In this document: positions 7,171 to 25,258 of the stretch, piece after piece | Position numbering within the stretch: position 1 is the stretch's first letter | How the letters are laid out: every line of letters begins with the position of its first letter | Position numbers and translations under genes: made by a program | The notes under the pieces: model-generated | Databases searched by the model: none | The model's input: the letters and a program-made list of their open reading frames with translations, nothing else | Told to the model about the DNA's origin: nothing | Source of the DNA: a virus | Length of the DNA stretch: 30,744 nucleotides | Strand: one strand, 5' to 3' | IMG/VR virus record: IMGVR_UViG_3300033141_003769 | Span: 1-30,744 of that record

Positions 7171-7974
7171 ATGTTATCTCCAGAATCTAAAGCGTGTTGG
7201 AACACGGATTCGTGGTTAAAAAGACTGGGTGATTATGTAATCCTTCAGGGATACAGGGGGAGTGTTGCACATAACACATATGACAGAGAAGTCACCAGTG
7301 ACGACGTTGATATCATGGGCATTTTTATCCCTCCGCCCGAGTGCGTGTTTGGGATTGACAACGTTGAGACAATTGACAGACAGATAACGGAACGCCGAAA
7401 AGGTGGAGAAGAAGTCGTTTGGGATATTGTTTATTATAGTCTCCCAAAATTTATGAGATTAATCCTTAAGCAGAATCCCAATGTTTTGGGATTCCTATGG
7501 TTGAAGAATGAGCATTATCTAAAAGTTGAGTGGGGCGGACAGAAGCTAATACTCGAAAGAGAGCGACTTCTCTCTAAGAGGTGCTATGATAGTTATCATG
7601 GCTATGCGTGGGGGCAATTCAAGCGTATGTCAGGTTCGGTTACGGGAAAGCTCGGGGCTAAGCGTAAGGAGCTGGTCGAGAAGTTTGGGTATGACGTAAA
7701 AAACGCTGCGCATCTTATCCGATTACTTAGGCAAGGAATTGAGGTTTTAAAGACAGGAAGGATAAAGGTTTTTAGAGATGAAGATAGAGATCTAATCCTT
7801 TCGATAAAAAGAGGTGAGTGGAGCTTTAATGAGGTGATAAAAGAAGCAAGACGGCTTTTTGACGAATTATCCGAAGCACACGAGAACTCGCCTCTACCCG
7901 AGAAAGTGGATGTTAACTATGTTAATCAACTCTGTCAAGCGATCATGAGAGATTTTTACAGAGTTGGGAGATAA
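7171..7974 (+). CDS. Nucleotidyltransferase, RlaP-like family (267 aa)
   Basis: A polymerase-beta-type nucleotidyltransferase signature is visible: Gly-Ser at 30-31 in QGYRGSVAHNTY, followed by SDDVDIMG with the metal-binding Asp pair at 45 and 47. The pattern G-S-x-x-H-x-T ... S-D-x-D-x-x-G-I-F is that of the RlaP (RNA-ligase-associated, PF10127) group found in phages and bacteria. The helical C-terminal half (KNAAHLIRLLRQGIEVL) also fits that group. The substrate is unknown; RNA-end or tRNA modification is a possibility. No RNA ligase lies in the window. Ribosome binding site GGAAGGAGG is strong. Confidence 0.8.
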   Translation: MLSPESKACWNTDSWLKRLGDYVILQGYRGSVAHNTYDREVTSDDVDIMGIFIPPPECVFGIDNVETIDRQITERRKGGEEVVWDIVYYSLPKFMRLILKQNPNVLGFLWLKNEHYLKVEWGGQKLILERERLLSKRCYDSYHGYAWGQFKRMSGSVTGKLGAKRKELVEKFGYDVKNAAHLIRLLRQGIEVLKTGRIKVFRDEDRDLILSIKRGEWSFNEVIKEARRLFDELSEAHENSPLPEKVDVNYVNQLCQAIMRDFYRVGR

Positions 7975-10223: not shown

Positions 10224-10666
10224 CGTTAGAAAAATTTGTGAAAAGAATGCTTGAGCGCCATGGTTATGATGGGCTTTTCGACCCTGATACTGGTTGTAAC
10301 TGCTCGGTGGATGAGTTGATGGTCTGTGGCGAACCACATCCTTGGTGCGAACCCGGGGTGCTTGTTGTCTGTTCCTGTGAAGATCACGACGGCTATCATT
10401 TTGAGCCCAAGCGTGCCGATGTCCCTGAACAGGAAAAGCTCCTTTATTTATCACAGCATCCATTACGTTATGTTGATGCAACACCTGACAGAGACTATCC
10501 GTTACGGATCATCAGGACATATCTTGAGAATAGTCAGATTGTCATAGAGGAAAAAGGTGGGGACAAGCCGAGCAAGTTTATTAAGATGCTTAACGATGCA
10601 AACAAGGAACGGGTCAAGGTTTTGAAGGAGGCGCTTGACGTTTTGACAAAACATTATAAAGGTTGA
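10220..10666 (+). CDS. Phage protein of the GYDGLF..DxxCxC type (148 aa)
   Basis: An ATG overlapping the previous stop (ATGA) sits behind AGGAGGTGG. The first 60 residues (RMLERHGYDGLFDPDTGCNCSVDELMVC, then PWCEPG) match a widespread small phage family with a conserved G-Y-D-G-L and four Cys. In many phages that domain stands alone at about 60-70 residues. Here an extra ~85 residue C-terminal part follows (HPLRYVDATPDRDYPLRIIRTYLEN...) whose role is unknown. Confidence 0.7.
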   Translation: MTLEKFVKRMLERHGYDGLFDPDTGCNCSVDELMVCGEPHPWCEPGVLVVCSCEDHDGYHFEPKRADVPEQEKLLYLSQHPLRYVDATPDRDYPLRIIRTYLENSQIVIEEKGGDKPSKFIKMLNDANKERVKVLKEALDVLTKHYKG

Positions 10667-10683
10667 AAGGAGGCAAGAGGAAC

Positions 10684-10869
10684 ATGATTAGACGCATTAA
10701 TGGTGGTTGGGTTTTATACTGTGACCGCTGCTCCAATTATGAGGAATTCGATAGAGAGGATACGTTTAGGGATGTTGTGGCAAAGGCAAAGTCAGAGGGT
10801 TGGAAGATGCAGTATAGAGCTGATGGTGTGTGGAAACACTACTGCCCAGCGTGCGCTTGTGGAGGTTGA
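10684..10869 (+). CDS. Small zinc-binding hypothetical protein (61 aa)
   Basis: GAAAGGAGG precedes an in-frame ATG at 10684; an upstream ATG at 10663 would overlap the previous gene. The protein has LYCDRCSNYEEFD and a C-terminal HYCPACACGG, with a W-K-rich middle (AKSEGWKMQYRADGVW). The layout equals that of the gene at 5340: CxxC, helix, W, Y-CPxC. The two are likely members of one family. Confidence 0.7.
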   Translation: MIRRINGGWVLYCDRCSNYEEFDREDTFRDVVAKAKSEGWKMQYRADGVWKHYCPACACGG

Positions 10870-10900
10870 TGAGTGTTGAGTAATCTAGAAGGAGGTCGAG

Positions 10901-11449
10901 GTGGATACGTCGAATGAGTATATCAAAATGTGCACCCATCCCTTGCTTTGGGAGTTGTGGGAGCCAAAGGCAGGAGATTTTGTTCATGTTAAAGAAAAAG
11001 ACGAGGTCATAACTTTAGGACATGACTGGGTAGGAGTCAAGAAAATAAGGGTGTCGAGAGGTCCCGTTGTAGAGATAGCATATTTAGACACTCCTGTGGA
11101 AATCTGCAAGGCTCCAGACGCCGCTCCCGTCATTACTGAGGGGATTTCTGAGGGGCGCAATAGGTATTATTTCCGCAGGTTTACAGCGCCAATCTGGCTT
11201 CCGAGACAAGATCAGATACAGGAGATGTTGAGAAAAGAAACAGCTCCACCTACAGCGTTTCTTGTGTTTCAAGACTTCTCATCCTGGCTCTTCAAGTTTC
11301 AGGACTGGCTGCGCAATCATTGTGATGTTGCCTTTACGACTCTTGAAAAGTTGTGGCTTATGTTCTTTATGTATTCTGTAGATGAGTTGTTGTGGAATAA
11401 GTATAAGAAGGTGTGGGAGAGAATTTCTCCGCCTATTTTTAGATTGTAA
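10901..11449 (+). CDS. Phage protein of the YIKMC...WLPRQDQLQEM family (182 aa)
   Basis: A GTG at 10901 follows AAGGAGG. The N-terminus has EYIKMCTHPLLWELWEPKAGDFV, the middle APIWLPRQDQIQEMLR, and the end LEKLWLMFFMYSVDELLWNKYKKVWE. These three blocks in that order define a common phage family of unknown function. The D-x-V-H strands after GDFV may form a small barrel. No catalytic residues can be named. Confidence 0.75.
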   Translation: MDTSNEYIKMCTHPLLWELWEPKAGDFVHVKEKDEVITLGHDWVGVKKIRVSRGPVVEIAYLDTPVEICKAPDAAPVITEGISEGRNRYYFRRFTAPIWLPRQDQIQEMLRKETAPPTAFLVFQDFSSWLFKFQDWLRNHCDVAFTTLEKLWLMFFMYSVDELLWNKYKKVWERISPPIFRL

Positions 11450-11487
11450 GGAACGTCTATCTATTGTCAAAGGGGAGGGGTAAAGAA

Positions 11488-11925
11488 ATGACAAAGGAAA
11501 GCTTTGATTTTGTTTTAGTGGAGCCGACAAAGGGTATCTATCGTCTTGTTCTGGCTAGTACAGAAGAAACAAAGAGGATAGATATCCCCGAGCTTTATGA
11601 GCGAGATGGCGACGATGTGCGTAAAGCATTGTTGTCATTAATCCGCAAACTGAATGATTTACTTGAGTGGGTCAACAAGGTTGACCCGCCAAAAAAATCT
11701 AAAAGGAGGAATGATATGAAGACGCTTATTCGCAATCCAGAGAGTATTGAGTTTGAGATTCGCAAAGCGGAAAATGGTTTTTACATGCGTGTGGTTATTA
11801 ACGATTGTCCATTCTTTCATGAAAAAGAGAGGGTTGCCCAGACAGACGGCGACGTGAGGGCTTTTCTAAATGAGATGATAGACCTGTTCTGCGGATCGAA
11901 AAAATCTGAAGTTAAGGAGGACTGA
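11488..11925 (+). CDS. Two-repeat protein of the IPE-DG family with internal start (145 aa)
   Basis: An ATG at 11488 follows AGGGGAGGGG. Residues 1-66 (FDFVLVEPTKGIYRL, then IPELYERDGDDVRKALLSL and LLEWVNKVD) are related to the 71-residue protein at 7991. Residues 77-145 (IEFEIRKAENGFYMRVVI ... TDGDVRAFLNEMIDLF) look like a third, diverged copy. Between them lies an in-frame AAAAGGAGGAATGAT-ATG. The gene therefore seems to be two ancestral genes joined in frame, and the second half may also be made alone. Confidence 0.7.
   Translation: MTKESFDFVLVEPTKGIYRLVLASTEETKRIDIPELYERDGDDVRKALLSLIRKLNDLLEWVNKVDPPKKSKRRNDMKTLIRNPESIEFEIRKAENGFYMRVVINDCPFFHEKERVAQTDGDVRAFLNEMIDLFCGSKKSEVKED
11701..11718 (+). 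promoter_or_regulatory. Internal ribosome binding site and start
   Basis: A strong AAAAGGAGG lies 6 bases before an in-frame ATG at 11716, inside the gene starting at 11488. Initiation there would give a 69-residue product equal to the second repeat (residues 77-145). Confidence 0.6.
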
Positions 11926-11956
11926 GCTTTTGAGTCAGGCTCCGAAGGAGGTTATT

Positions 11957-12637
11957 ATGAAAAAGCTCGCACTTGTGCTCGGACTCAGTTTGCTCCTTAT
12001 AGGTATGGGAATTGAGCTTTACATCATGAATTGGTTAGGGCGCGAAATTGAAGAAATCAACGACAGGGTGGGGATGCAAGAGGTTAGGATTATGGCAGTC
12101 GAAAAGCAAGTCCCGCAGATAACAAAGTATCTTCAAGTGGTTAACTTGTTATCAGAGAAGACGGAAGGCAGGTTGAGTGCAAGGGAAATAGTTGAGATCA
12201 GTCGCATGATCATTGAGAGTTGCTACCTATACAGGGATCTTGGGCTGACAGAAGCGATGATTTTTGGGCTGATAGAGCGGGAGTCCAATTTCGATCCGAA
12301 TGCGGTCTCTCCTGCGAAAGCCTATGGTCTCATGCAACTCTTGCTCCCGACAGCGACACCACACTTGGAGAAGCTGGGCTTCAAGAATATAACTGTTGAC
12401 TTGCTAATGGATCCCGTGATAAACATTAAAGTTGGAATCGCAGAGTTGGTGAGGCTCAGAAAGTACTGGCTCTCTGAAGGAATTGACAGCTGGTATATTG
12501 TGTTTACCTCTTATTACTGGGGAGTTAGGGCAACGTCGCTTTTGTTGGTCGAAAAGGGTAGAGGTTTGTTGCCAAGTCTCGAATATGGAAAGGGTGTAAT
12601 GGAGCTACAAAAGAAATGGATCGAGAGAGGTTTATAA
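11957..12637 (+). CDS. Membrane-anchored lytic transglycosylase (SLT family, 226 aa)
   Basis: The ATG at 11957 follows GAAGGAGG. Residues 4-26 are a hydrophobic N-terminal helix (LALVLGLSLLLIGMGIELYI) that would anchor the protein or act as a signal. A coiled-coil stalk follows to about residue 75. The SLT domain begins near 80: the catalytic Glu is in GLIERESNFDPNAVSP (Glu109), followed by AYGLMQLLLPTAT at 122-134 and the late YYWG segment. The family cleaves the MurNAc-GlcNAc bond of peptidoglycan. The role could be host lysis or cell-wall penetration at entry; position before the late genes and the membrane anchor favour lysis, but this is inference. Confidence 0.85.
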   Translation: MKKLALVLGLSLLLIGMGIELYIMNWLGREIEEINDRVGMQEVRIMAVEKQVPQITKYLQVVNLLSEKTEGRLSAREIVEISRMIIESCYLYRDLGLTEAMIFGLIERESNFDPNAVSPAKAYGLMQLLLPTATPHLEKLGFKNITVDLLMDPVINIKVGIAELVRLRKYWLSEGIDSWYIVFTSYYWGVRATSLLLVEKGRGLLPSLEYGKGVMELQKKWIERGL

Positions 12638-12665
12638 ATTTATAACGTTGCATAGGAGGTGGGGT

Positions 12666-13622
12666 GTGGAGAGAAATGAAGTTGTCGTTCTCGTTGATGC
12701 TAATAACATGGTTTATCGGACTTTCAATCTGATTGAACTGAGCTATCAGGAAGAGCGGACTGAAGTGGCATTTCTGTCTCTTCGCCAGCTAATGTTTATA
12801 CTGAAGACGTTCCACCCGTCAGAGGTGGTATTTGTTTGGGACGGCGGATACGATAAACGCCGTCTCAGGATCTTCCCGAAATACAAGAGTGATAGACAGA
12901 AGGACTATGACGAGGAACAATTACGCGACTTTGCTGCACAGCGTTCACGGATGCAAGCTATGCTTTTTAAACTTGGAGTGCCACAGGTCAAAGTGAAAGG
13001 TAGAGAGGCGGATGATGTGATTGGAATGCTAGCTAAGAAGCTATTAGGTCCTTCAGGCAGCATAATAATTGTCTCGACAGATCGTGACTACTTTCAACTC
13101 ATCTCTAAGAATGTTTTTGTCTACAGCCCAACAAAGAATAAGCTCTATGATGAAACTACAGTTATGAATGAGCTGGGCGTGAAGCCCTCTGCCTACCCGC
13201 TCTGGAAGGCAATAGTTGGAGGACATGACGGAATACCAGGTCTGCACAGGGTTGGGCCGAAGGGAGCGCAGTTCTTGATCTCGCATTTAGAAAAAGGCAT
13301 CCCTCCTCAGAATAAGAGAGAAGAGACGGTTCTCAACAGGTTTCATGAGAATCACAACCAGATTGAGGTCTGCACACAGGTTGCGAAATTACTCCCCATC
13401 CCCGAGGATGAAATCTGGGATGGCTTGAGAGTTTGTAACGTTGAGTCGTTGCGGTCTTGGTGTAGGGAAGCCTATTCAGTTTTGAAGAATCTAGGCTTTG
13501 ATTTCTATATTGAGCATTTTGTTGATTTCGTCTCTACCTTTCAGGACTTTTTCAAAAGACGAAAACCCTTCAAGTTCCGTGAGCCGGTAACAGCCGGCAA
13601 CCGTTTTCAGACAAGAGGATAA
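12666..13622 (+). CDS. 5'-3' exonuclease / flap endonuclease (FEN family, 318 aa)
   Basis: A GTG at 12666 lies 6 bases after AGGAGG. The PIN-like nuclease motifs are in order: LVDANNMVYR with Asp11, FVWDGGYDKRRLRIFPKYK with Asp59, GREADDVIG with Glu114, Asp116 and Asp117, and VSTDRDYFQL with Asp139 and Asp141. They are followed by a helix-3-turn-helix segment (HDGIPGLHRVGPKGA, Asp188). All key acidic residues are present. The enzyme would remove RNA primers or flaps during phage replication, like T4 RNase H and T5 exonuclease. The length fits a stand-alone phage FEN. No polymerase lies in the window. It is convergent with the minus-strand gene at 13640. Confidence 0.9.
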   Translation: MERNEVVVLVDANNMVYRTFNLIELSYQEERTEVAFLSLRQLMFILKTFHPSEVVFVWDGGYDKRRLRIFPKYKSDRQKDYDEEQLRDFAAQRSRMQAMLFKLGVPQVKVKGREADDVIGMLAKKLLGPSGSIIIVSTDRDYFQLISKNVFVYSPTKNKLYDETTVMNELGVKPSAYPLWKAIVGGHDGIPGLHRVGPKGAQFLISHLEKGIPPQNKREETVLNRFHENHNQIEVCTQVAKLLPIPEDEIWDGLRVCNVESLRSWCREAYSVLKNLGFDFYIEHFVDFVSTFQDFFKRRKPFKFREPVTAGNRFQTRG

Positions 13623-13625
13623 AGA

Positions 13626-13731
13626 ATGAGGGAGGCAGGTCACCCGCCGAGACACTCCATCCAAGGGCGTCTCATTGGTCCCATCAATCTTTCCCACATC
13701 CCCCCAAATCCCAAAACCTTGCCTCCCTCAT
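13626..13731. repeat. 12-base inverted repeat within the minus-strand gene region
   Basis: The arms ATGAGGGAGGCA (13626-13637) and TGCCTCCCTCAT (13720-13731) are exact inverse complements, 82 bases apart. A smaller GAGAC/GTCTC pair lies between them. They could fold the 3' part of the minus-strand transcript or be a protein-binding site. Confidence 0.5.
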
Positions 13732-13858
13732 CCGCTGTTACTTTTTGTTTCCATCTCTGTTTGAAATGTTCTAACCAACTGATAATATCAATTTTTTTGT
13801 CATTCTGTATTTGGTCAAATGTTGCTTTTTGTTCCCCACGCCAGGACGAAAAGGACAT
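13640..13858 (-). CDS. Lone minus-strand small protein (72 aa)
   Basis: On the reverse strand an ATG (13858-13856) preceded by AAGGAAAA opens 72 codons: MSFSSWRGEQKATFDQIQND, then a helix with DIISWLEHFKQRWKQKV, then a Gly/Trp/Met-rich tail. The plus strand here is pyrimidine-rich, unlike the purine-rich coding strand elsewhere, which is the composition expected if the minus strand codes. Apart from this, every gene in the window runs forward. It converges with the exonuclease gene and diverges from the promoter at 13865. Its place suggests a regulator of the late genes, but no DNA-binding motif is certain. Confidence 0.5.
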   Translation of the reverse strand: MSFSSWRGEQKATFDQIQNDKKIDIISWLEHFKQRWKQKVTADEGGKVLGFGGMWERLMGPMRRPWMECLGG

Positions 13859-13864
13859 TTTTCC

Positions 13865-13893
13865 TTGACAAGTGCATTGTAAGGAAGTATATT
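13865..13893 (+). promoter_or_regulatory. Near-consensus sigma70 promoter for packaging/head genes
   Basis: A perfect TTGACA at 13865-13870, a 17-base spacer and TATATT at 13888-13893 (5 of 6 to TATAAT). It ends 14 bases before the putative small terminase start, so the leader is very short. It lies in the only sizeable stretch without forward genes. Host housekeeping RNA polymerase should recognise it. Confidence 0.8.
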
Positions 13894-13907
13894 GAGGGCA
13901 GCTAGCC

Positions 13908-14552
13908 ATGAATGATATCAACAATAGTCGCAACGACAATTATCACGAAGGTCTTGACTATCCTCAGCATGTAGAATCATTTGAGACCTATTACTACCTA
14001 GGAGAACTCAGAACATTGAAGGCAACAGCGGAGATCAGGTTTAGAACTCTGTTCCCTGATTGTCACCCGGATAGTCCTGAATATAAGAGTAAGTTTTCTT
14101 CTTTTTATACAAAAATCAAGAGGTGGGCAAAGAAAGAGAGATGGGATGAGTGGGTGAAGAGGAAAGAGATAGAGGAACGTTCAAAGCGAGAAGCTGAAAT
14201 GAGACAACGGCTAGAGTCGTTTCAGAGGACTCTAAGAGGCTATCAAGCATTGACTCGACAGGCCATTCTCGCTTTCTCAGACAAGGTGCGGAATACGCTA
14301 GCTCTGAAAAGGGCTGTTGAGACGGGGAACGAGGCGGAGGCACTAAGACTCAAACAACTACCTCGTGTCGAAATAAAGAATTTTAAAGAGCTCAGGGAGA
14401 TGATAGAGTTGGATTTGATGATCACTAGGACTCTAGAGCAACAGCCGGAGATGTCTCCTGAAGAGGAACGGCTAGCCCACAGCGAAATGGAGAAAATTGA
14501 TACAATCATGGAAAGGATAAGAAAAGCTGCTATGGACTCAGGCGAGTCTTAA
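13908..14552 (+). CDS. Putative terminase small subunit (214 aa)
   Basis: The first gene after the promoter at 13865; GAGGG lies 12-16 bases before the ATG. Residues ~24-80 (FETYYYLGELRTLKATAEI ... FYTKIKRWAKKERWDEWVKR) follow the pattern of a phage small terminase DNA-binding region: F-x-x-Y-x-x-L-G-x-x-R-t followed by W-x-x-K-x-x-W-x-x-x-V. The rest is a long charged helix pair, suited to oligomerisation, ending in an acidic region. In the family this protein recognises the packaging site and loads the large subunit, which lies at 17481. The usual helix-turn-helix is stretched here, so this is a probable rather than certain call. Confidence 0.65.
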   Translation: MNDINNSRNDNYHEGLDYPQHVESFETYYYLGELRTLKATAEIRFRTLFPDCHPDSPEYKSKFSSFYTKIKRWAKKERWDEWVKRKEIEERSKREAEMRQRLESFQRTLRGYQALTRQAILAFSDKVRNTLALKRAVETGNEAEALRLKQLPRVEIKNFKELREMIELDLMITRTLEQQPEMSPEEERLAHSEMEKIDTIMERIRKAAMDSGES

Positions 14553-14572: not shown

Positions 14573-15619
14573 TTGGCCAAAAAGAAAACTGCTGAATCAC
14601 ACGGACTCAAGGGGGTGAAGATACAAATCCGCACCAAAAACCTTCCGATGAAAAAGATTGGTGAGTTTGAAGACTTCCAAGGAGATTTGAAGATATTGGA
14701 TCCTGTTCAGAAGGCTAAGCTGAAAGCTAGTATCGTCCGCAACGGATTCAATGCCCCTATCTTCGTCTGGGAGGGACATAATTACATCCTTGACGGACAC
14801 CAGAGGTTGGAGGCGGTAAAATCTCTCGTGCGTGATGAGGGAATGGTTCTGGAGAATGATGAACTGCCCTATGTTGAAATAAAGGCAAACACGCTGAGAG
14901 AGGCTAAGGAGATGATCCTCACCTACAATTCTCAGTATGGCAACATTTCTCCTGATGCTCTTGCTCAGATGCTCTCTGATTTGAATATTTCTCCCGATTC
15001 TTTGACTGATTTTATCAGTCTCCCCGATGTAAATATTGAAGAGGTGTTCTTTAAGCTTGGTTCATCTCCCGAATATGTCATCGTTGAGAGGGATATGGAT
15101 CAGCAGGAAGCTTTCATGACAAATCCCGGAGGGGGAGGAAAGTCGCTTTGGGCTTCGCAGAACTTTGTCTTCAGCGTAGGACCCTTATACACTGTTATTC
15201 CTGCTCACATGGGTGCAGTGCTCGTGAAGAAAATTATCAGTGAGGGGATGAAGACGATTGTTGATAAAATTCTCAACCTGGATGAGCGCTTTGGTGATGA
15301 TGAGACAAAGAAAGCAAACTACTTGCGCCGAGTTGGACACGTCTGGGTGGAGGTGCGTGATGAGAAGTCGGGGGAACCAAGGATGATGACGCTAGAAGAA
15401 GCTTTAGAGGCAGGTGAGCTGGAGTTTGTTGACAAGTTCGCCAAAGAAGATGATGGATGGGAAGCGTTATACGAAAAACGAAAGGTGCAGCGGTCAAAAA
15501 ATAGGGAAGAATTTAAGGAATGGATGAAGAAAGAGGCAGAAATGGGCAAAGCATTGGAGGCAGGGTTAGAAGACATGGACTCTGAGATGGGAGAAGAGCA
15601 AGATGAAAAAGAAGCTTAA
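14573..15619 (+). CDS. ParB/sulfiredoxin-domain protein (348 aa)
   Basis: A TTG at 14573 lies 4 bases after GGAGGT. Residues ~38-125 form a ParB-like domain: LDPVQKAKLKASIVRNGFN, PIFVWEGHNYILDGHQRLEAV with the core D-G-H-Q-R at 74-78, and VEIKANTLREAKEMILTYNSQYG. In phages such domains act as nucleases, CTP-binding switches or partners of DNA methyltransferases. No methyltransferase domain is fused here. Residues ~125-348 are long and unfamiliar, with Asp/Glu-rich helices at the end. The gene overlaps the radical SAM gene by 17 bases and sits in the packaging operon, so the two may act together. Function beyond the domain is unknown. Confidence 0.8.
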   Translation: MAKKKTAESHGLKGVKIQIRTKNLPMKKIGEFEDFQGDLKILDPVQKAKLKASIVRNGFNAPIFVWEGHNYILDGHQRLEAVKSLVRDEGMVLENDELPYVEIKANTLREAKEMILTYNSQYGNISPDALAQMLSDLNISPDSLTDFISLPDVNIEEVFFKLGSSPEYVIVERDMDQQEAFMTNPGGGGKSLWASQNFVFSVGPLYTVIPAHMGAVLVKKIISEGMKTIVDKILNLDERFGDDETKKANYLRRVGHVWVEVRDEKSGEPRMMTLEEALEAGELEFVDKFAKEDDGWEALYEKRKVQRSKNREEFKEWMKKEAEMGKALEAGLEDMDSEMGEEQDEKEA

Positions 15620-17174
15620 GGTCTTCTTCTTTTCAACAGCTTTTTTAGACGGACTGGCCGATGTCGGATACTACATGACAAGAGAGGCATTCCTCAAAAC
15701 CGGTTTTTTCGAGAGAGTGCAGCTGATTCAGGATGCAGATGTTTTGGCCATCAGCTCTGGCTCGGCGTTGGTCTTTCCTTCTGCCTTGACTTATGGAGGT
15801 AAAGGGAGGCTGATGCTGAAGGCGATAAAGAAGTTTAAGAAGAATCCCAAAAGATTGGTTCTCATTGGCGGCAACATCTCAAAAGCGCCTGCTCCGGTGG
15901 AACTTCTGGCTGATGTGGTCTGTGTGGGGCATATTTTCAGGTTTATGCCCGTTTTTGGTGAGTTGGTTGGAGAGTGGTTGTCGAGTGGGAAGGACAAAAA
16001 GTATCTTTTGGAAAAGGTTGCCGAAAAAATACCTAACGCATTTGTCCCGTATGTCCATAGACGTAAATACGATCCTGCAAACCTGAAATACTCTTATATT
16101 GAGGGGTATCCTCAAATACCGTATGATCATGAGGTTGACTGGAATCAGAATAAGGCCTTTGCAGTTGATGAAAAAGCTTATGCAGTGCTGGCTACGGTTG
16201 GTTGCAAGCGCAAGTGCTACTTTTGCCAGCCGGGATGGGTTGAGAAGTGGGATGAGGAGAAGGACTATCAGAAGATCCTCTATTACGAAAATACTATCAA
16301 CAAGAAAATGAGGGGTGTGGGGATAAGCTGGATTTCTGATAATCTGGCTAGCTGGAAGCTAGTGCATCTCGTTTCGACAGCTTCATCGTCAGCGACAGTG
16401 CAGGATTTGCTACGAGCTCGTCACAAGTCACGGATCATCAGGTTGGGAGTGGAAGGGTTTAGTGAGAGACTGAGGCGTCTTGTCAACAAACCTCTTTCTA
16501 AAAAACAGCTTGAAGAAGTGATCATGACAAATCGACACCGGAGCTTCAAGCTTTTCCACATTGATGGTCTTCCCTTTGTTAAAGATGATGATCTGGAAGA
16601 GTTTGTCGAGTTCTGGGGGAGAAACTGGGGAGGTCAGAAAGGGCGCCTCCTATTCAAGTTTACTTACTTCAATCCGGTTCCTTTGACACCTATGGGGTGG
16701 ATGCCTTTCTACAATGATTCGCCCTTCGCGAGGAATAGAGATACCTACTTTCTGAGAATTAAGAAGCGGGGAAATATGAGGCATCGCTTCATGTCTGTCA
16801 ACACACCGGAAAGGGGATTTATGCGCGCTCTTTTATGCAACACTGACGGACTTCTCAATGTTTTGATGCACAGCGATCCGGCCTTTACTAAGATGTATCA
16901 CGATCGCACTACTCCGTTGGAGAAGGTATTAGCTTGGTGTGAAAAATGGGGCTATTACGACATGGATTACGGTTACGACGTTGACGAGACACTCCCCTCA
17001 GAGTTTGTCGATTCAGGGATCAGCAAAGAAGTTTTGAGGAAGATTGCACGCAAGCTGGAGCCCGAGATCACTACACGGAGAGAAAGGCGATTTGTCGAGA
17101 GGCGTTCAGCTCCCGAGGACTACAAGTGCTTGGATGAGATCCTGACTGATGAACAAAGGGCGTTTCTGGAATAA
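15603..17174 (+). CDS. Radical SAM protein with B12-binding-like N-terminal domain (523 aa)
   Basis: Residues 201-208 are GCKRKCYFC, the CxxxCxxC site for a 4Fe-4S cluster that cleaves SAM. Residues 1-150 look like a B12-binding Rossmann domain (RLVLIGGNISKAPAPVELLADVVCVGH), though the DxHxxG cobalamin motif is not visible. Later blocks (RLGVEGFSERLRRLVNKPLS at 280-299, FKFTYFNPVPLTPM at 351-364) follow the order of the radical SAM barrel in YgiQ/MiaB-type enzymes. It starts inside the ParB-domain gene and is followed by a small gene and the large terminase. The substrate is unknown; nucleic acid or protein modification are both possible. It is not the short QueE type. Confidence 0.8.
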   Translation: MKKKLKVFFFSTAFLDGLADVGYYMTREAFLKTGFFERVQLIQDADVLAISSGSALVFPSALTYGGKGRLMLKAIKKFKKNPKRLVLIGGNISKAPAPVELLADVVCVGHIFRFMPVFGELVGEWLSSGKDKKYLLEKVAEKIPNAFVPYVHRRKYDPANLKYSYIEGYPQIPYDHEVDWNQNKAFAVDEKAYAVLATVGCKRKCYFCQPGWVEKWDEEKDYQKILYYENTINKKMRGVGISWISDNLASWKLVHLVSTASSSATVQDLLRARHKSRIIRLGVEGFSERLRRLVNKPLSKKQLEEVIMTNRHRSFKLFHIDGLPFVKDDDLEEFVEFWGRNWGGQKGRLLFKFTYFNPVPLTPMGWMPFYNDSPFARNRDTYFLRIKKRGNMRHRFMSVNTPERGFMRALLCNTDGLLNVLMHSDPAFTKMYHDRTTPLEKVLAWCEKWGYYDMDYGYDVDETLPSEFVDSGISKEVLRKIARKLEPEITTRRERRFVERRSAPEDYKCLDEILTDEQRAFLE

Positions 17175-17190: not shown

Positions 17191-17484
17191 ATGATAATTT
17201 TAAATTTTTTTATCCCTTCCGCCGATGAAGTCAACGCTCAGGATTTAGACTATTCTAAAATAGCACATCAGCTATACGCTCTTGGCTATCATCCATTTGA
17301 ATACCACCGCTGGCATCTACGTATCCCGGTTGTGAGAATGATGTATGGGTTAGCGAAACTCCGCTTTCCAGAGATGGCGAGAGATTATGAGATTGACTGG
17401 TCGCTTGTTTTGCGAACGGCCTTTGAGTTTGTCTGTTGGCAGCTACGAACACTTTTTGCTAAAACTTTTAAAACAAGAAAATGA
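17191..17484 (+). CDS. Hypothetical protein before the large terminase (97 aa)
   Basis: An ATG at 17191 lies behind AAGGAG, with AGTAGG closer to the start. The product has a short hydrophobic start (IILNFFIP), a His/Tyr-rich middle (ALGYHPFEYHRWHLRIP) and a C-terminal helix (LRTAFEFVCWQLRTLFAKTF). No family was recognised. It overlaps the terminase start by 4 bases (ATGA), so the two are translationally coupled. Confidence 0.65.
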   Translation: MIILNFFIPSADEVNAQDLDYSKIAHQLYALGYHPFEYHRWHLRIPVVRMMYGLAKLRFPEMARDYEIDWSLVLRTAFEFVCWQLRTLFAKTFKTRK

Positions 17485-19526
17485 ATAGCATCCGTACACA
17501 CACTGGCTCACCAAACGATTCACATCTGCTTTTCACTTCAGATAAGGCGAGAGAAGATTTTGACACACTCATCAGAGCTTTTTCGAAAACAAAAAATCCT
17601 AAGTTCATAAGACCGTCGTTATATTTCAGAGAGAAGTATGCTTTTTGGCCTAAAGATCCAGTCTCCTGTGTGAGGTGGATAAACGATCCAGAATACTTTG
17701 GGCACATTGGGGTCCACACTTTCCCGAAGGTAAAGGAAGGTTTTATTGCAATCATGGAGAGAGAAAACCGACCACTGCGATTGGTTCTTGGAGGAGCTAT
17801 TGGGTGGGGGAAGACTTTCTTGACTTGTCTTATTATGGCTCGACTTATCTACGAGCTCGTAACCTTACGCAATCCTCAGGCTTATTATGGGTTGGCGCCC
17901 GGAACGCCTATTAACCTGATGAATCTTTCGGTTACGAGGACTCACGCCCGTTATGTCCTTTTTAATACACTCAAGGATATGCTTGATGGCTCAGTATGGT
18001 TCCGGAAATACTGTCCGCGGCGGAGTGATATAGAGTCCATTATAGATTTTCCTCAGAGGAACATTTCGTTCGTTCCCGGCTCCTCTAGCGAGTTAGCTCC
18101 TCTGGGGGCAAACCTCTTTGGGGGAGTGATTGAGGAGGCCAATTTCTTTCCTGTTGTAGTAGGTAGTCGTAAAAGTAGAAATCCTGATGAGCGTGAGTGG
18201 GATCAGGCCAAGAAGCTGCACGACGCTGTCTGGAGGCGGATGAAGTCTCGTTATCAGAAGCACGGCAGAGTTCCAGGGATGTTAGTTCTCAATTCGTCAG
18301 CGAAATACCCCGATGATTTCTTAGAAAAAGTGATAAAAGAGAATGATCCGAATACAGAAGTCATTTCCTATGCAACGTGGGATACAAAACCTCAGGACTG
18401 GTTTAGTGGTGATAAGTTCTATATTTTTATAGGAGATCGCTTCACTAGGCCTAGAGTTCTAGAGACTCAGGAGGAGGTTGAGAAATATAGAGGGAAAGGC
18501 ATGATCAAGGAGGTCCCGATTGAATACAAACATGACTTCGAAGTTGATATTGAAGGAGCTATACGAGATATTATGGGTGTAAATATTCGTTCTTTAAACA
18601 GGTTCTTTACAAATTTGGATGCGTTGGAAGAATGTGTTGATCCATCACTTCCAGTACCTTTCTCGCAAGAGTTTGCAGGCGGGATTGTCGCAACAGACCT
18701 TCCAATTGCTTTAAATCTTAAGAAGCTGATTAACCCAATAGTAAGGATGAAAAAAAGTCCTCCCCGTCCGCTCATCAATCCAGATGCTCCTCGATTTTGT
18801 CATATTGACCTAGGAACCACTAACGATGCTTGTGGAATTTGTATTGGGCATATAGCTGAAGTGAAGGAAGTCAAAAGGAGACAAGAAAGTGATGAGAAAA
18901 TAGAGGTGGTACAGGAGACCGCCCCAGTGATAGTAGCTGATCTGGTTCTGAGAATTATCCCACCTCTTGATGAAGAAATCCAGATAGAGGACGTTCGTCA
19001 AATTCTCTATGATCTTCAACAGCTGGTTGGATTTAGATTCGTGAGGATCACTTACGACCAATGGCAAAGTAAGGATTCGATGCAGTTATTGAAGCGTAGA
19101 TTTGGAGCGGACATCGTTGGCTATCTATCAGTTGACAGGACTGATGACCAGTACAATGTCTTGAAGGTTGCTATAAATGAGGGTCGCTTCAAGTGCTATC
19201 ACTATGAGCCGTTTTTTAGAGAAGTGCGACAGCTCATAAGAGATCCAAAGACAGGTAAAGTTGACCATCCTGCTAATGGCTCGAAAGATGTTGCTGATGC
19301 GGTAGCAGGGATGGTCTGGAATGCCACAACTTATGAAATGTGGATGACAGCGGGCGGAGAACCGTTGCAAACTAGTGTACAGCCTGCCATGACCGATGAA
19401 GAGAAAGCAAAGGCAGATTTTGTCAAACGCTTGATGAATAAAGAAATTGAAAAGAGTGAATCGGAATTAGACGATGAAGCGTTGATGAGAGAATTAGATG
19501 AAGGCTTAGACTTGGAGGAGGATTAA
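17481..19526 (+). CDS. Terminase large subunit (681 aa)
   Basis: The packaging motor. The ATPase half has Walker A GGAIGWGKT at 104-112 with Lys111, a Walker B-like GGVIEEANFF with Glu218/Glu219, and a coupling motif LVLNSSAKYPDD near 268-278. The RNase H-like nuclease half has FCHIDLGTTND with Asp443, ITYDQWQS with Asp526 and SKDVADAVAG with Asp603 and Asp606. The protein is at the long end for the family, mainly because of an insert near 320-420 and an acidic tail. It cuts concatemeric DNA and drives it through the portal at 20522. The ribosome binding site is weak, in keeping with coupling to the upstream gene. Confidence 0.92.
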   Translation: MNSIRTHTGSPNDSHLLFTSDKAREDFDTLIRAFSKTKNPKFIRPSLYFREKYAFWPKDPVSCVRWINDPEYFGHIGVHTFPKVKEGFIAIMERENRPLRLVLGGAIGWGKTFLTCLIMARLIYELVTLRNPQAYYGLAPGTPINLMNLSVTRTHARYVLFNTLKDMLDGSVWFRKYCPRRSDIESIIDFPQRNISFVPGSSSELAPLGANLFGGVIEEANFFPVVVGSRKSRNPDEREWDQAKKLHDAVWRRMKSRYQKHGRVPGMLVLNSSAKYPDDFLEKVIKENDPNTEVISYATWDTKPQDWFSGDKFYIFIGDRFTRPRVLETQEEVEKYRGKGMIKEVPIEYKHDFEVDIEGAIRDIMGVNIRSLNRFFTNLDALEECVDPSLPVPFSQEFAGGIVATDLPIALNLKKLINPIVRMKKSPPRPLINPDAPRFCHIDLGTTNDACGICIGHIAEVKEVKRRQESDEKIEVVQETAPVIVADLVLRIIPPLDEEIQIEDVRQILYDLQQLVGFRFVRITYDQWQSKDSMQLLKRRFGADIVGYLSVDRTDDQYNVLKVAINEGRFKCYHYEPFFREVRQLIRDPKTGKVDHPANGSKDVADAVAGMVWNATTYEMWMTAGGEPLQTSVQPAMTDEEKAKADFVKRLMNKEIEKSESELDDEALMRELDEGLDLEED

Positions 19527-19976: not shown

Positions 19977-20143
19977 GACATCATACAACCGATGACCAAC
20001 TCGCAGTCGGGCGGAAATGCCTCGAGCTTCATCGTCGTCAAAATATCCCGATAATTCGTTTGTCTCGGCGGTTCGGCGTTGCTCGTTCGACTGTTAAGCG
20101 GTGGATGAGAAAGGCGGAAATGTATGAAAGCGAAAGTCGTTAA
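19973..20143 (+). CDS. Small helix-turn-helix DNA-binding protein (56 aa)
   Basis: An ATG overlapping the previous stop (ATGA) opens 56 codons to a TAA at 20141-20143. Residues 26-48 (PIIRLSRRFGVARSTVKRWMRKA) are a textbook helix-turn-helix: hydrophobic first helix, Gly-Val turn, then S-T-V-x-R-W recognition helix. This form is found in transposase N-termini, small terminases and resolvase-type regulators. The protein is a single HTH and very basic. It could regulate late transcription or help packaging. It overlaps the next gene by 20 bases. Confidence 0.7.
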   Translation: MRHHTTDDQLAVGRKCLELHRRQNIPIIRLSRRFGVARSTVKRWMRKAEMYESESR

Positions 20144-20477
20144 GACGACTAGTATAGACATAGCTCATTTTTTGACTGAGTATGTTGGGGTCGAGAGTAC
20201 CCTCCACGGGCATACGTGGGGGCTAGTTTTTGAGTTCGAGTTGGAGCAGTCAATACATCCAAGGGATATTGAAAGACTGACTAATCGAGTGCTGTCAGAC
20301 TTTGAACACAGGGTTTTAAACCAATTAGCCGAATTTGCGCATATAGACCCAACACCGCTCAATTTTATTCTGGTTCTTTTTGAGAAAATAAGGGATCAGT
20401 GCGATCCGGAAATTGTCAAGCTTGCGGGCATTTCTGTGCGTGAGGGTAGTTTTACGTGGCGCGTCGAAAATATTTGA
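20124..20477 (+). CDS. 6-pyruvoyl-tetrahydropterin synthase-like enzyme with Glu at the Cys site (117 aa)
   Basis: The fold markers of the PTPS/QueD family are present: SIDIAHFL with His15, LHGHTWGLVFEFE with His28 and His30 (the three zinc ligands), FEHRVLNQ with His62, IDPTPLNFILVLFEKI (the P-T-x-x-N block) and a late VREGSF with Glu107. The catalytic Cys, which stands four residues before HGH in QueD, is replaced by Glu24 (ESTLHGH). Glu at that site is known from PTPS-III enzymes that make 6-hydroxymethyl-dihydropterin for folate. The gene overlaps the HTH gene and precedes the portal. Folate, deazaguanine or an unrelated pterin role cannot be decided here. Confidence 0.75.
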   Translation: MKAKVVKTTSIDIAHFLTEYVGVESTLHGHTWGLVFEFELEQSIHPRDIERLTNRVLSDFEHRVLNQLAEFAHIDPTPLNFILVLFEKIRDQCDPEIVKLAGISVREGSFTWRVENI

Positions 20478-20521: not shown

Positions 20522-22021
20522 ATGGCGAATGCACAAAAACAACTCATAGATAAAATATCAGCTCTCTTCAAGCGGACGGAACCTGAAGCAATCCCTGTGA
20601 CAACAGAGCAAAGACAGACAAGCTGGAATGAGGTAAGACTCTTCAAACTCGATAATGACAGATTAGCGCATTATAAAGACTATGATGATATGGACAGCGA
20701 CATTGTTGAAATTTCCTCATCTTTGGATGTACACGCTGACTTTGCAGTTAGTGGAACCACCAGCAATGAGCTTTACTCGTGTATGGTAGATGAAAAGAGT
20801 GTGGGTTCTAAACTTGACACAGTCAATAGCATAATAGCCGATCTTGAAAAACGGACAAAGCTGAAAGAGCGTGTCTGGTTAATGGTTAGGAGGATAGTTA
20901 AGAGCGGGGATTGTTTTTATGAGATTGTTTGTTCCCCTCAGGAAATAGTAAAACTCAAACCTTTACCTGTCGAGACGATATTCCTGAACCTTGAAGACGG
21001 AGTTGTTAATAAAGAACAGCCCTATTATCAGATCAATGAACTTGGGAAACCAGACATTTATTTTGCCCCGTGGGAGATTGTGCACTTTAAAGCAGGGGAT
21101 GGTCTCTATGGGTACAAATATTCAATATTGAAGAGATTGCGTAGGACTTACAGAGTTTTACGGATGCTGGAGGACACCCTAGTTGTAACACGCGTTGTCA
21201 GGGCTAATCAGCAAGGGGTTTATGAAATTGATGTTACTGGGATGAGTGAGAGGGAAGCGACAAGATATATCAGAAAGATCCAACTCATGAACAAACGCCG
21301 ACCTTACTTTGACTCTGAGGGGAAGCTTAGGTTTGGTGACGATCCTTTGAAGCCTCGAGAGGATGTTTATGTTCCTGTTAGGAAGGGTGGAGTATCTAGC
21401 TTCAGAGTCATAGAGGGCGACCAAAATCTCGGAGAGATAACGGACGTTGAGCATTTTCACAACAAGTTATTTGCTGGGACAAAAGTGCCGAAGGCGTACC
21501 TCGGGTTTGAAAGAGATGTAAACGCAAAGGCAACGTTGGTCCAACAGAACATAGCTTTTGCGAGAGAGGTGCGTAGGCACCGCATTGCGTTAGTTGGAGG
21601 TTTGAAGAAGATATACATATTAGAATTCTTGTTAGCGGGTATTGATCCGTTCAGTTTTTCGTGGCGCTTCAAGTTTCCGCCTCTCGGGGATCCCGATGAA
21701 AAGGTCAGGTGGGAGATCGAGGAGCTGAAGGCTCGGACGCTCAAGACTTACGCTGATATGGGGATCGTGATCCCGACAGAGTGGATTGTTCGCAATCTTT
21801 TTCTTAATCTTACACCTGAGGAAGCAGACACGCTTTTGGATATGATGGGCGAGGGGACTTCAGAGGAGAAGAAGAAGAAGATTGACAAGGTCAAGCTAGA
21901 CAATCTCAAGAGGCTGGTTCTTTCTACACCGGCGCTGAAGGCTAAGATTGAAAAAGTTGAGAAGGTGATAAAGGAGATTCTATCAGGTGATGGGTATGAT
22001 TATTACATAGTTAATGAGTAG
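20522..22021 (+). CDS. Portal protein, T4 gp20-like (499 aa)
   Basis: Residues ~30-200 carry the stem/wing core: DIVEISSSLDVHADFA, then CFYEIVCSP and YFAPWEIVHFKAG. The diagnostic T4-type segment lies near 285-330 (VYVPVRKGGVSSFRVIEGD, NLGEITDVEHFHNKLFAG, KVPKAYLGF). It is followed by a helical crown ending KIDKVKLDNLKRLV. The dodecameric portal forms the DNA entry vertex and docks the large terminase. Length is close to the T4 type. The gene follows 44 bases of untranslated DNA with AGAGGAC as ribosome binding site. Confidence 0.9.
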   Translation: MANAQKQLIDKISALFKRTEPEAIPVTTEQRQTSWNEVRLFKLDNDRLAHYKDYDDMDSDIVEISSSLDVHADFAVSGTTSNELYSCMVDEKSVGSKLDTVNSIIADLEKRTKLKERVWLMVRRIVKSGDCFYEIVCSPQEIVKLKPLPVETIFLNLEDGVVNKEQPYYQINELGKPDIYFAPWEIVHFKAGDGLYGYKYSILKRLRRTYRVLRMLEDTLVVTRVVRANQQGVYEIDVTGMSEREATRYIRKIQLMNKRRPYFDSEGKLRFGDDPLKPREDVYVPVRKGGVSSFRVIEGDQNLGEITDVEHFHNKLFAGTKVPKAYLGFERDVNAKATLVQQNIAFAREVRRHRIALVGGLKKIYILEFLLAGIDPFSFSWRFKFPPLGDPDEKVRWEIEELKARTLKTYADMGIVIPTEWIVRNLFLNLTPEEADTLLDMMGEGTSEEKKKKIDKVKLDNLKRLVLSTPALKAKIEKVEKVIKEILSGDGYDYYIVNE

Positions 22022-22857: not shown

Positions 22858-23288
22858 ACGTTCCGAAGACAGGAAACTCGATAAGAGTTAGGCAGTTTGA
22901 CCCAAAGAGATGTAAGGCTGGAAGTTACCGCACGTTGACAATTTCGAAGAGTAAAGGAATAAGTCTTGTTAGGTGCATTCTAAAATCAACAGGGAAGTGG
23001 GCAACTCAGACAATCTTATTTGCTAAGGATAAATGGGACAAATCGTCAATAAGGAAGTGGATCAAGGATCACGGGTATGTTATTCTCCCTGAAAACTTCG
23101 AGTCGCTATTTTCATTGGGAAGATTTAGGCGGCGAAAGTTTCTCTACGACCTACACGTCGCCCAACTGTGGCGCAATGAATACCTAAAAGCATTGGATGC
23201 AGATGCCGTGGATCCTGCCGCTGAGGCTTGGTCAGCCGTATTTGAAAGATACAAAAGAGTCAATGGGAGATGGAAAGCTAGGAAATGA
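22845..23288 (+). CDS. Head-associated protein with ChaB-like C-terminus (147 aa)
   Basis: It starts at an ATG inside the end of the previous gene. Residues 15-77 (RVRQFDPKRCKAGSYRTL, GISLVRCILKSTGKWATQTILFAKDKWDKSSIRKWIKDHGY) match a phage domain linked to prohead proteins: C-x-R-T, G-V/I-x-L-V-x-G, then W-x-x-x-x-A-x-x-W-x-x-x-H. The C-terminal EAWSAVFERYKRVNGRWKAR resembles the ChaB-type W-x-x-V-x-x-x-Y...G-x-W motif. It is probably a subunit or co-factor in head assembly; this rests on domain company only. Confidence 0.65.
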   Translation: MPGIDVPKTGNSIRVRQFDPKRCKAGSYRTLTISKSKGISLVRCILKSTGKWATQTILFAKDKWDKSSIRKWIKDHGYVILPENFESLFSLGRFRRRKFLYDLHVAQLWRNEYLKALDADAVDPAAEAWSAVFERYKRVNGRWKARK

Positions 23289-25258
23289 TCGAACGATTGA
23301 CAGACGACTGGGATTCGATAGACGAGCACTGGTACCGAGAGTCGGTCAAGTCTATCACTCATGATATTTCGCAACTTGGATCTGCGCCCCTTGCGAGTCT
23401 GTCAGCCGACGTAGCGGCACAGGGTTTTTTTGCGGTGGGAGGTTTTGATGTCAAACTCGCGAGTGAGATGTGGGACGCTAGATGGAAGTTGTCTAAGTCA
23501 GTCGCTTCTAGACTTCAGTCTTTGGTGAAGGACGCTTGGGATCTGAGAATTTCCATCCCTCAGTTTCGTACGAAAGCTCGGAGCGTGTTAAGAAAGGCAT
23601 ACCAAGACGCATTTTATCTTGGTGGGCAGGCTGCTGGCAATCCTTTTTTCAAAGATAAGGCTTTGACCTCGCTCGAGAGGTCTATGTTAGGTCGTGCATT
23701 TAAAGCTGAATCACGTTTTCTTGACCGGCTTATTGATGACTTGAGGGTCAAAAAACAAAGTCTCGAGGTTTTCAAGAGGCGTATGAAGGGCTATGCAAGT
23801 TCAGTTGAAACGCAGTTCTGGAATGGATTTATCACCGGATCGCCTGATGATGCGTTGTTCTATTGGAGTTTGGGGATCCCTGCAAAAGGAGGCAATTGTC
23901 CCGACTGTGTCGAGTTGAATGCTCTTTCACCCTTTAGAAAAAGAGATTTACCGACTACACCAAGAGCGGGTGATACGAGATGTCTTTTTAACTGTACATG
24001 CACATTGCAGTTGGTTAAAGAGGCGTCTCGACCAACTCCAGGTGGGGCAAGATTCGAGCCCTATTGGACAGTTGTTTCGCCAAAGGTCCCCGCGATTCCT
24101 TTCGGACGGTCTGCTCATCTCCAGTCTTTGTCAAGGAGCGGAATACCTGAATCTATAGAGCGAGAAATTAATGACCTATTTGAGTTGATGAATGTCTTCA
24201 GGATGAAGATGGCTGTTACCAAGGGGGAAGCTCGAAAGGTGTGGATGGCAGCCCGACGCGACATCAATGAACTTATTATTCAGAAGCTGAAGACGTACAA
24301 CCTTAGAGCAACACCAGCGTTTTCAACAAAAGAGCTTGTCGTTAGAGCTAGGTCGCTAATGGCGAGAGGAATGCGGTTAGTAGACGATGCTGTGGCCGTT
24401 GGCGAAGGAGATTATGTTTACACCATCCGCTTTGGTAAGATGATCATAGGGAGAGTGACGTCTGTTAATCCTGATGGGTCATTTATGCTGGATCTTGGAG
24501 AGTTTGGTGAGTTGATGGTTGATGAGAGGAGCCGTTTCTTCTTGGCAGCGCGCCCGGACGGAAGAAAAATAAGCGACCTTGCTAGTGTTAATGTTATGTC
24601 AATAGTTGAGAAGTTGCGGGAGAGTGTTGAGCTGCCGCGCTCGATAGTGAGAGCTATCTCCAAGCTGTATCCTGCAATAAGGGATGCGGTAGTTGCTAGT
24701 CTAGATCCATGGGTGGGAAAGGGTTATAAAGCGACAATCGGGCTAGTTTTTGAAGAGATAGCAACTGAGAAAGCGACGTACATTTTAGCATCACAGCCAT
24801 TCTTTCGACCACCACAGTTTTTCTTTTCTCACTACGCTCTCATGCCCAAAGGATTAGAGAGAGCAGCAAAGACTGAGTATTATTGTCATAGGCTAAGGAG
24901 GTTTCTGGTTGCTGCTAAGGCTATGCGCAACGCAGACGATATCCAGATATTTGTCAAAGCGACTGTTGAACATGAGATGGGTCATTTTCTTTCAGCTGCG
25001 CTAGAAAAAACAATTGTAAATCCTCCCCTTTCGGGGATTAATATTGATGAGGGAAAAGATATTTTACACGCTCTCAAGAGATATTATGAGGCGTTGAGTA
25101 AGGATGAGATTGCGAGAATGATAAGTGAGTATGCGTCACTCAACTATTACGAATTTGTCGCCGAGGCCTATGCAGCTTGGCGACTCGGTTTGCCACTTCC
25201 CAAAAATTTAGTTGAAATTTTAAAAAGGATGCATGCGTTTATGCTAGGAGCAGGATGA
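23285..25258 (+). CDS. MuF-like head morphogenesis protein with C-terminal zinc metallopeptidase domain (657 aa)
   Basis: Residues ~90-250 look like the MuF/SPP1 gp7 minor head domain, ending in a Cys module: NCPDCVELNALSPFRKRDLPTTP with Cys205 and Cys208, then TRCLFNCTCTLQL with Cys233, Cys237 and Cys239. Residues 370-425 are a small beta domain. Residues 530-640 carry a zincin motif: VEHEMGHFLSAAL with His563, Glu564 and His567, and a downstream YEFVAEAYAAW (Glu623, Glu627) that could give the third ligand. MuF proteins enter the capsid in a few copies and in some phages carry C-terminal effector domains ejected with DNA. A peptidase effector is therefore plausible but not shown. Confidence 0.75.
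   Translation: MIERLTDDWDSIDEHWYRESVKSITHDISQLGSAPLASLSADVAAQGFFAVGGFDVKLASEMWDARWKLSKSVASRLQSLVKDAWDLRISIPQFRTKARSVLRKAYQDAFYLGGQAAGNPFFKDKALTSLERSMLGRAFKAESRFLDRLIDDLRVKKQSLEVFKRRMKGYASSVETQFWNGFITGSPDDALFYWSLGIPAKGGNCPDCVELNALSPFRKRDLPTTPRAGDTRCLFNCTCTLQLVKEASRPTPGGARFEPYWTVVSPKVPAIPFGRSAHLQSLSRSGIPESIEREINDLFELMNVFRMKMAVTKGEARKVWMAARRDINELIIQKLKTYNLRATPAFSTKELVVRARSLMARGMRLVDDAVAVGEGDYVYTIRFGKMIIGRVTSVNPDGSFMLDLGEFGELMVDERSRFFLAARPDGRKISDLASVNVMSIVEKLRESVELPRSIVRAISKLYPAIRDAVVASLDPWVGKGYKATIGLVFEEIATEKATYILASQPFFRPPQFFFSHYALMPKGLERAAKTEYYCHRLRRFLVAAKAMRNADDIQIFVKATVEHEMGHFLSAALEKTIVNPPLSGINIDEGKDILHALKRYYEALSKDEIARMISEYASLNYYEFVAEAYAAWRLGLPLPKNLVEILKRMHAFMLGAG

Follow-up and report, generated by a model that had tools for sequence, protein, structure and literature searches.

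We analyzed a stretch of viral DNA of 30,744 nucleotides (IMG/VR virus record IMGVR_UViG_3300033141_003769, positions 1 to 30,744; the whole stretch is referred to here as the window), focusing on two overlapping genes that encode a ParB-like protein and a radical S-adenosylmethionine (SAM) protein and that are located between the genes of the small (TerS) and large (TerL) terminase subunits. The 30.7-kb window belongs to a tailed phage with a T4-type portal, a prohead protease and a major head protein, and its TerL is akin to the TerL proteins of siphophages, among them Vibrio SIO-2, Stenotrophomonas DLP5 and Rhodobacter RcZahn (30-35% identity). All genes of the locus lie on the plus strand. 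The TerS gene (13908..14552; phrog_6299, E 1.6e-5) is followed by the gene of the ParB-like protein of 348 amino acids (14573..15619), which has PHROG matches, a TTG start codon and a GGAGG sequence upstream of it, and by the gene of the radical SAM protein of 523 amino acids (15603..17174). As described in an earlier note on this DNA and confirmed by the open reading frame coordinates, the 3' end of the former and the 5' end of the latter share 17 bases (15603..15619), an arrangement in which translational coupling is possible. An open reading frame of 97 amino acids (17191..17484) lies between the radical SAM and TerL genes (TerL, 17481..19526; phrog_2, E 4e-11), and two small open reading frames, a QueD/PTPS-like gene (20124..20477; PF01242, 50.7 bits) and the T4-type portal gene (20522..22021; PF07230, E 2e-46) are located downstream of TerL.

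The ParB-like protein matches the PHROG families 620, 723 and 930, annotated as ParB-like, and family 498, annotated as DNA methyltransferase, with E values from 1e-13 to 5e-6. The top match is the DNA methyltransferase family (phrog_498, E 1.4e-13), and the PADLOC match is MTase_II. Because the PHROG ParB-like matches are accompanied by no match to Pfam ParB_N (PF02195), the protein is predicted to contain a divergent ParB/Srx-fold domain, which covers approximately residues 23-150 (14639..15022, delimited by motif check and alignment); the C-terminus ends in a coiled-coil-like part. According to the motif check, the protein lacks the canonical CTPase boxes of ParB, GERR and ENxQR, and has DGHQR and YNSQYG instead. 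Outside the window's own group, the nearest relative is the ParB domain of a fusion protein of Porphyromonas gingivalis phages whose other part is a DNA methyltransferase (36% identity over 146 amino acids, E 2e-18 by blastp; 98.5% by hhalign). The gene of this fusion directly precedes two small genes, which are followed by TerL, so that both the homologous domain and the neighborhood just before TerS/TerL resemble those of the window, whereas the fusion has a methyltransferase domain with a DPPY motif and the window protein has another C-terminus and a separate radical SAM protein. BLAST detected no similarity between the window protein and the TerL-adjacent ParB proteins of Vibrio, Stenotrophomonas and Rhodobacter phages, and profile comparison indicated a domain common to all of them (82%). 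Judged by these sequence relationships, the window domain can be assigned to the DNA-methyltransferase-linked type of ParB.

The radical SAM protein matches Pfam Radical_SAM (PF04055) with 30.9 bits (cut-off 29.5), and residues 36-149 match Radical_SAM_N2 with 28.9 bits, marginally below the cut-off of 29.0, which the homologous protein of a related virus (L007, see below) exceeds. A single CxxxCxxC motif for the [4Fe-4S] cluster and SAM is present at residues 201-208 (C201, C205 and C208; 16203..16226), and the same motif is conserved in the three radical SAM proteins compared here. Among the structures of the PDB, an AlphaFold model built from 28 homologues (pTM, the predicted template modelling score, 0.75) was matched by MgmA and OxsB, both B12-dependent, and by MiaB, with MgmA on top. 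A PDB search with the profile of the family likewise placed MgmA first and also found RimO/MiaB; a PDB sequence search with the window protein alone found nothing useful. Motif, PF04055 match and predicted fold together place the protein in the radical SAM superfamily, with a B12-type (class B-like) architecture. Its N-terminal part (15603..15992), delimited by the Radical_SAM_N2 match and the secondary structure, is predicted to be a cobalamin-binding-like Rossmann domain, B12 binding being predicted from the fold. The DxHxxG motif was not found in the motif check of the window protein; many class B radical SAM enzymes also lack it. The earlier note had proposed an intact CxxxCxxC motif, a B12-binding-like N-terminal domain and a type other than the short QueE, and the present results agree on all three points, on the second at the level of the predicted fold.

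Several closer assignments of the radical SAM protein were rejected. It is not a QueE, as it matches no QueE model and has 523 amino acids compared to about 210-240, nor a methylthiotransferase of the MiaB/RimO type, as the three extra N-terminal cysteines that hold a second cluster are absent and C107 stands alone before the core motif. The nearest annotated family is NCBIfam TIGR03960, a cellular B12-binding radical SAM family that likewise has an N2 domain and a core with CxxxCxxC (18-25% identity), but the scores of the window protein (53.1 bits) and its L007 homologue (44 bits) are far below the equivalog cut-off of 462, which rules out membership. The phage proteins differ from TIGR03960 at the N-terminus and appear to form a deep branch of their own. 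MgmA and OxsB share the B12-binding-like and radical SAM fold with the window protein, but at approximately 10-13% identity and TM scores of 0.3-0.5, and their substrates are proteins or small molecules.

Two relatives carrying both genes were identified, the portal being used as the anchor for finding relatives. The first, L007 (IMGVR_UViG_3300035688_000002, genome G001), is a virus contig of 100.8 kb that was found by alignment-guided scans of viral contigs, and the second, L112 (IMGVR_UViG_3300033149_005665, genome G002), is a close relative of the window that was found by the portal scan. The gene order in L007 is TerS, ParB, a DUF5675 gene, radical SAM, TerL, QueD-like and portal. Identities between L007 and the window are 62% for TerL and 53% each for the radical SAM protein, TerS and the portal; the ParB proteins show 46% global identity, and 51% over 249 amino acids. 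Synonymous sites are saturated between these two viruses, and the nonsynonymous divergence (dN) is 0.43 for the radical SAM gene, 0.43 for the portal, 0.45 for TerS and 0.78 for the QueD-like gene. As its dN equals that of the portal in this comparison, the radical SAM gene behaves as a core gene, evolving no faster than the portal.

L112 shows a different pattern. Its identity to the window is 81% for the portal, 78% for the QueD-like protein, 65% for TerL and 46% for TerS; the range for the portal, the QueD-like protein and the product of the next gene downstream of the portal is about 78-82%. The slot between TerS and TerL contains two tandem ParB-like proteins, which share 37% identity and belong to another subfamily, and a radical SAM protein very divergent from that of the window (27-28% identity); the second ParB gene overlaps the radical SAM gene by 40 bases. 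A homologue of the 97-amino-acid open reading frame (61% identity over 77 amino acids) is located before the ParB genes of L112 and not after the radical SAM gene, and none is present in L007. At the DNA level, the window and L112 become similar again only within TerL. Since L112 swaps both genes while the flanks stay, ParB and radical SAM genes appear to be retained or exchanged together at one constant position between the two terminase genes, and since the same gene order recurs in two other virus contigs, it goes beyond chance. The joint function suggested in the earlier note gains support from these comparisons: the pair occupies one slot in all three viruses, L112 replaces both genes, and the genes overlap again there (two of the three viruses, the window and L112). 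The same note had named a pair found separately and randomly placed in relatives as evidence to the contrary; both relatives keep it in the same slot.

Pattern scans detected no further viral contig with the pair, although such patterns miss divergent cases, L112 being an example. Single-protein scans of viral contigs for the radical SAM protein and TerL found no relatives, and neither did a genome scan with a pattern of the phage pair; a genome scan with a broad pattern yielded TIGR03960-type cellular proteins only (19-25% identity). The radical SAM proteins of L007 and L112 had no match among isolated phages, and a plasmid search for the radical SAM protein found only two very large replicons (21-25%). 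Two records labeled "Bacteriophage sp." (MT836750.1 and MT839369.1) were considered as phage relatives and rejected; they were read as bacterial chromosome fragments because a TIGR03960 radical SAM gene lies beside chromosomal housekeeping genes in them.

The earlier note had presented the ParB gene as part of an insertion in the packaging operon, a view that does not hold for ParB as a peculiarity of this phage. A ParB-like gene is located within a few kb upstream of TerL in 6 of 15 TerL-related phage loci (Vibrio V-YDF132, DLP5, RcZahn, RcTiptonus, PA_L9 and HJ05) and is absent in the other nine, one of which is truncated by the end of the record. It is important to mention that this sample is biased, three of the six having been picked early as top or notable matches, and that the ParB profile itself included four of the six proteins, those of PA_L9 and HJ05 being found independently. 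ParB next to TerL is a recurrent arrangement rather than an unusual one, and no radical SAM gene is annotated beside ParB in any of the six. The ParB neighbors in V-YDF132, DLP5 and RcTiptonus are glycosyltransferase-like genes. In the TerL relatives PA_L9, a Pseudomonas phage (L103:2907-8755), and HJ05, an Aeromonas phage (L107:91-6321), a ParB gene, a ParB-methyltransferase fusion and a CmoA homologue precede the gene in the TerS position and TerL; the CmoA homologues match TIGR00740 with E values of 6e-26 and 7e-35, below the equivalog cut-off. This set has the appearance of a carboxymethyl-type cassette for DNA modification that the records do not annotate.

Two published systems can be compared with the locus. 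In mycobacteriophage B2, the genes tgt (DpdA), queC, queD and queE precede TerL (PMC6392294, PMC11772480), and Rosebush DNA carries preQ0 (PMC6884629). Subcluster B2 (Rosebush, CRB2 and Vic9), with this 7-deazaguanine DNA-modification cluster, resembles the window in having a possible ParB-superfamily protein (DpdB), a QueD and a radical SAM protein (QueE) directly before TerL. It differs in that its radical SAM protein is the short QueE and in having DpdA, QueC and FolE, whereas the radical SAM protein of the window is a large B12-type one, neither QueC nor TGT was found, and the ParB and radical SAM genes lie between TerS and TerL. The second is the carboxymethylcytosine system CmoA/CmoX/CmoY (phage S-B43), in which the phage CmoA works for CmoX, a carboxymethyltransferase acting on DNA cytosine, and which often has ParBc proteins nearby (PMC12783734). 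It is likewise a phage DNA base modification with ParBc-domain neighbors, but catalysis there relies on Cx-SAM and an enzyme with a methyltransferase fold instead of a radical enzyme. The statement of the earlier note that no characterized system has this form was too broad with respect to these related forms, and held for the B12-type radical SAM partner, which is unusual. A ParB with a DNA-modifying enzyme at this place is known, and a large B12-type radical SAM protein as ParB partner beside the terminase is undescribed in the literature that we found. A 2013 paper by Iyer et al. (NAR 41:7635) reportedly predicted phage base-modification systems; it may mention related contexts and might anticipate part of the proposal made here.

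We propose, with a probability of roughly 0.5, that the ParB-like and radical SAM proteins form a cassette that modifies DNA late in infection, with ParB targeting the radical SAM protein to DNA. The cassette would be swappable and its position between the two terminase genes constant. The ParB-like protein would serve as DNA adaptor or specificity subunit; it most likely brings the enzyme to DNA because ParB domains of its subtype go together with DNA methyltransferases and because published base-modification systems are found at similar positions. The B12-type radical SAM protein would be the catalyst, its [4Fe-4S] cluster and SAM abstracting hydrogen and a group being added to a phage base, perhaps a methyl group at an unactivated carbon, a product guessed from its fit to B12-type enzymes. 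The modification would take place late in infection, before or during packaging, and might shield the phage genome from host nucleases; swapping an enzyme and its partner amid constant flanks would be the behavior of DNA-protection cassettes under host-nuclease pressure. DNA as substrate, ParB guidance, timing and chemical product are the parts that we infer. The fuller version, in which the ParB-guided enzyme acts near packaging on an unactivated carbon of phage DNA and cassettes are swapped to vary the modification, is put forward more tentatively. The earlier note had left open late modification of DNA or of the capsid; the ParB subtype and the occupants of equivalent slots in other phages favor DNA, and the capsid is the weaker candidate.

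A number of observations weigh against the proposed cassette. The closest fold match of the radical SAM protein, MgmA, has a protein and not DNA as its methylation substrate (PMC11796369). The tight overlap is not universal, because in L007 the DUF5675 gene (L007:9094-9723), which overlaps ParB by 4 bases, parts ParB from the radical SAM gene. The TerL-linked ParB proteins of Vibrio, Stenotrophomonas and Rhodobacter phages are of another subfamily and occur without a radical SAM protein, the role of ParBc in such neighborhoods has been stated to be unknown (PMC12783734), and the structure model of the window ParB has too low a confidence for use (pLDDT, the predicted local distance difference test score, 41.5). 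Moreover, the pair is known from three contigs only, all of them possibly fragments. The occurrence of ParB beside TerL without a radical SAM gene in the six phages mentioned above fits an alternative that we regard as unlikely, namely that the two genes are independent neighbors, ParB helping with partition, with the handling of the genome or with loading of the terminase, and the radical SAM protein being auxiliary, for example in RNA or cofactor modification. A ParB near TerL in phage DLP3 has been read in terms of lysogeny and partition (PMC7326821), and the tRNA enzyme MiaB is among the fold matches; but both genes change together between the window and L112 with the flanks kept, they overlap in two of three viruses, the CTPase boxes GERR and ENxQR are absent from ParB, and the MiaB-type N-terminal cysteines are missing. 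The radical SAM protein could also act on a protein of the virion or of the packaging machinery (capsid, portal or terminase), for example C-methylating it, with ParB as packaging or scaffold partner. This would agree with MgmA being a glutamine C-methyltransferase of methyl-coenzyme M reductase (PMC11796369), with the position of the pair among head genes and with the conservation of the radical SAM gene being as strong as that of the portal. We consider it distinctly unlikely: the nearest relatives of the ParB partner are tied to DNA methyltransferases, and the radical SAM protein differs greatly between the window and L112, yet the portal, the QueD-like protein and the post-portal gene remain at about 78-82% identity, which would be odd if they were its substrates.

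The QueD-like gene, located between TerL and portal in all three viruses, and thus near the slot, raises a further alternative, a 7-deazaguanine-type pathway in which the QueD-like protein makes the pterin, the radical SAM protein replaces QueE, ParB replaces DpdB and the host supplies the rest. A ParB(DpdB)-DpdA-QueC-QueD-QueE set beside TerL is known in B2 (PMC6392294), and L007 (CANVHGH) retains the CxxxHGH signature of PTPS-I (PMC5041015). The corresponding motif is ESTLHGH in the window (GVESTLHGH) and ESSLHGH in L112 (GSESSLHGH), with Glu at the position of the catalytic Cys; the protein is not a PTPS-III either, as ExxxHGH is not ExxHGH and fits neither class (PMC5041015). No TGT/DpdA-type (PF01702) or QueC (PF06508) match was detected in the window or G001, a weak negative, as the contigs are possibly fragments and DpdA can be distant from PF01702. 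With QueC and TGT not found and the Cys lost in two of the three viruses, a canonical 7-deazaguanine modification appears unlikely, and the locus could not be assigned to a dpd- or Q-type system; as the size of the radical SAM protein and its lack of a QueE model match also speak against the pathway, we give even the host-assisted form a low probability. Lastly, phages deploy varied enzymes against host defence, and the radical SAM protein shows weak structural similarity to viperin (E 0.05), so that an enzyme of small-molecule or viperin-like nucleotide chemistry antagonizing host antiviral defence was considered. It is very improbable, as the radical SAM protein has no PADLOC match, its nearest folds are B12-type and not viperin, and ParB would be left unexplained.

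Some neighboring features of these viruses were also observed. Just upstream of TerS, both relatives carry a ubiquitin-like conjugation operon (L007:1397-5394; L118, reverse complement 10470-14162; L112:232-2288) that encodes a small ThiS/Ub-like protein, a protein of 474-481 amino acids, a ThiF/E1-like protein and a JAB-like protease; none was noticed among the open reading frames of the window. Genome G001 encodes three more radical SAM proteins (L012:309-1391, L012:5843-6781 and L014:17892-18575), two of which are in a cluster of glycosyltransferase, sugar-nucleotide enzyme and sulfatase-like genes downstream of the capsid gene. Glycosyltransferases encoded after the major head protein and tail proteins of the same phage share an N-terminal motif of approximately 20-25 residues, like 'VFNRGSPEVFYDEKMEPTEIPS' (window 28799-29770 and 29767-30744; L012:8219-11949; L015:4034-6234), perhaps a common attachment domain. 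Additionally, the C-terminal part of a large head-region protein of the window (23285-25258) resembles an HExxH metallopeptidase (PF15887, E 6e-4, below the cut-off), and positions 7171-7974 encode an RlaP-type nucleotidyltransferase (PF10127, 67.8 bits), a family of RNA-repair pathways.

Phage DNA modification uses methyltransferase, glycosyltransferase, transglycosylase and ligase chemistry. If the proposed cassette is real, this list would be extended by the chemistry of a B12-type radical enzyme that is linked to ParB, acts on DNA and can functionalize unreactive carbons. The fixed slot suggests a search route, in which genes beside ParB between TerS and TerL may lead to new DNA-modification enzymes, and the finding bears on the role of the widespread terminase-linked ParB proteins (PMC12783734).

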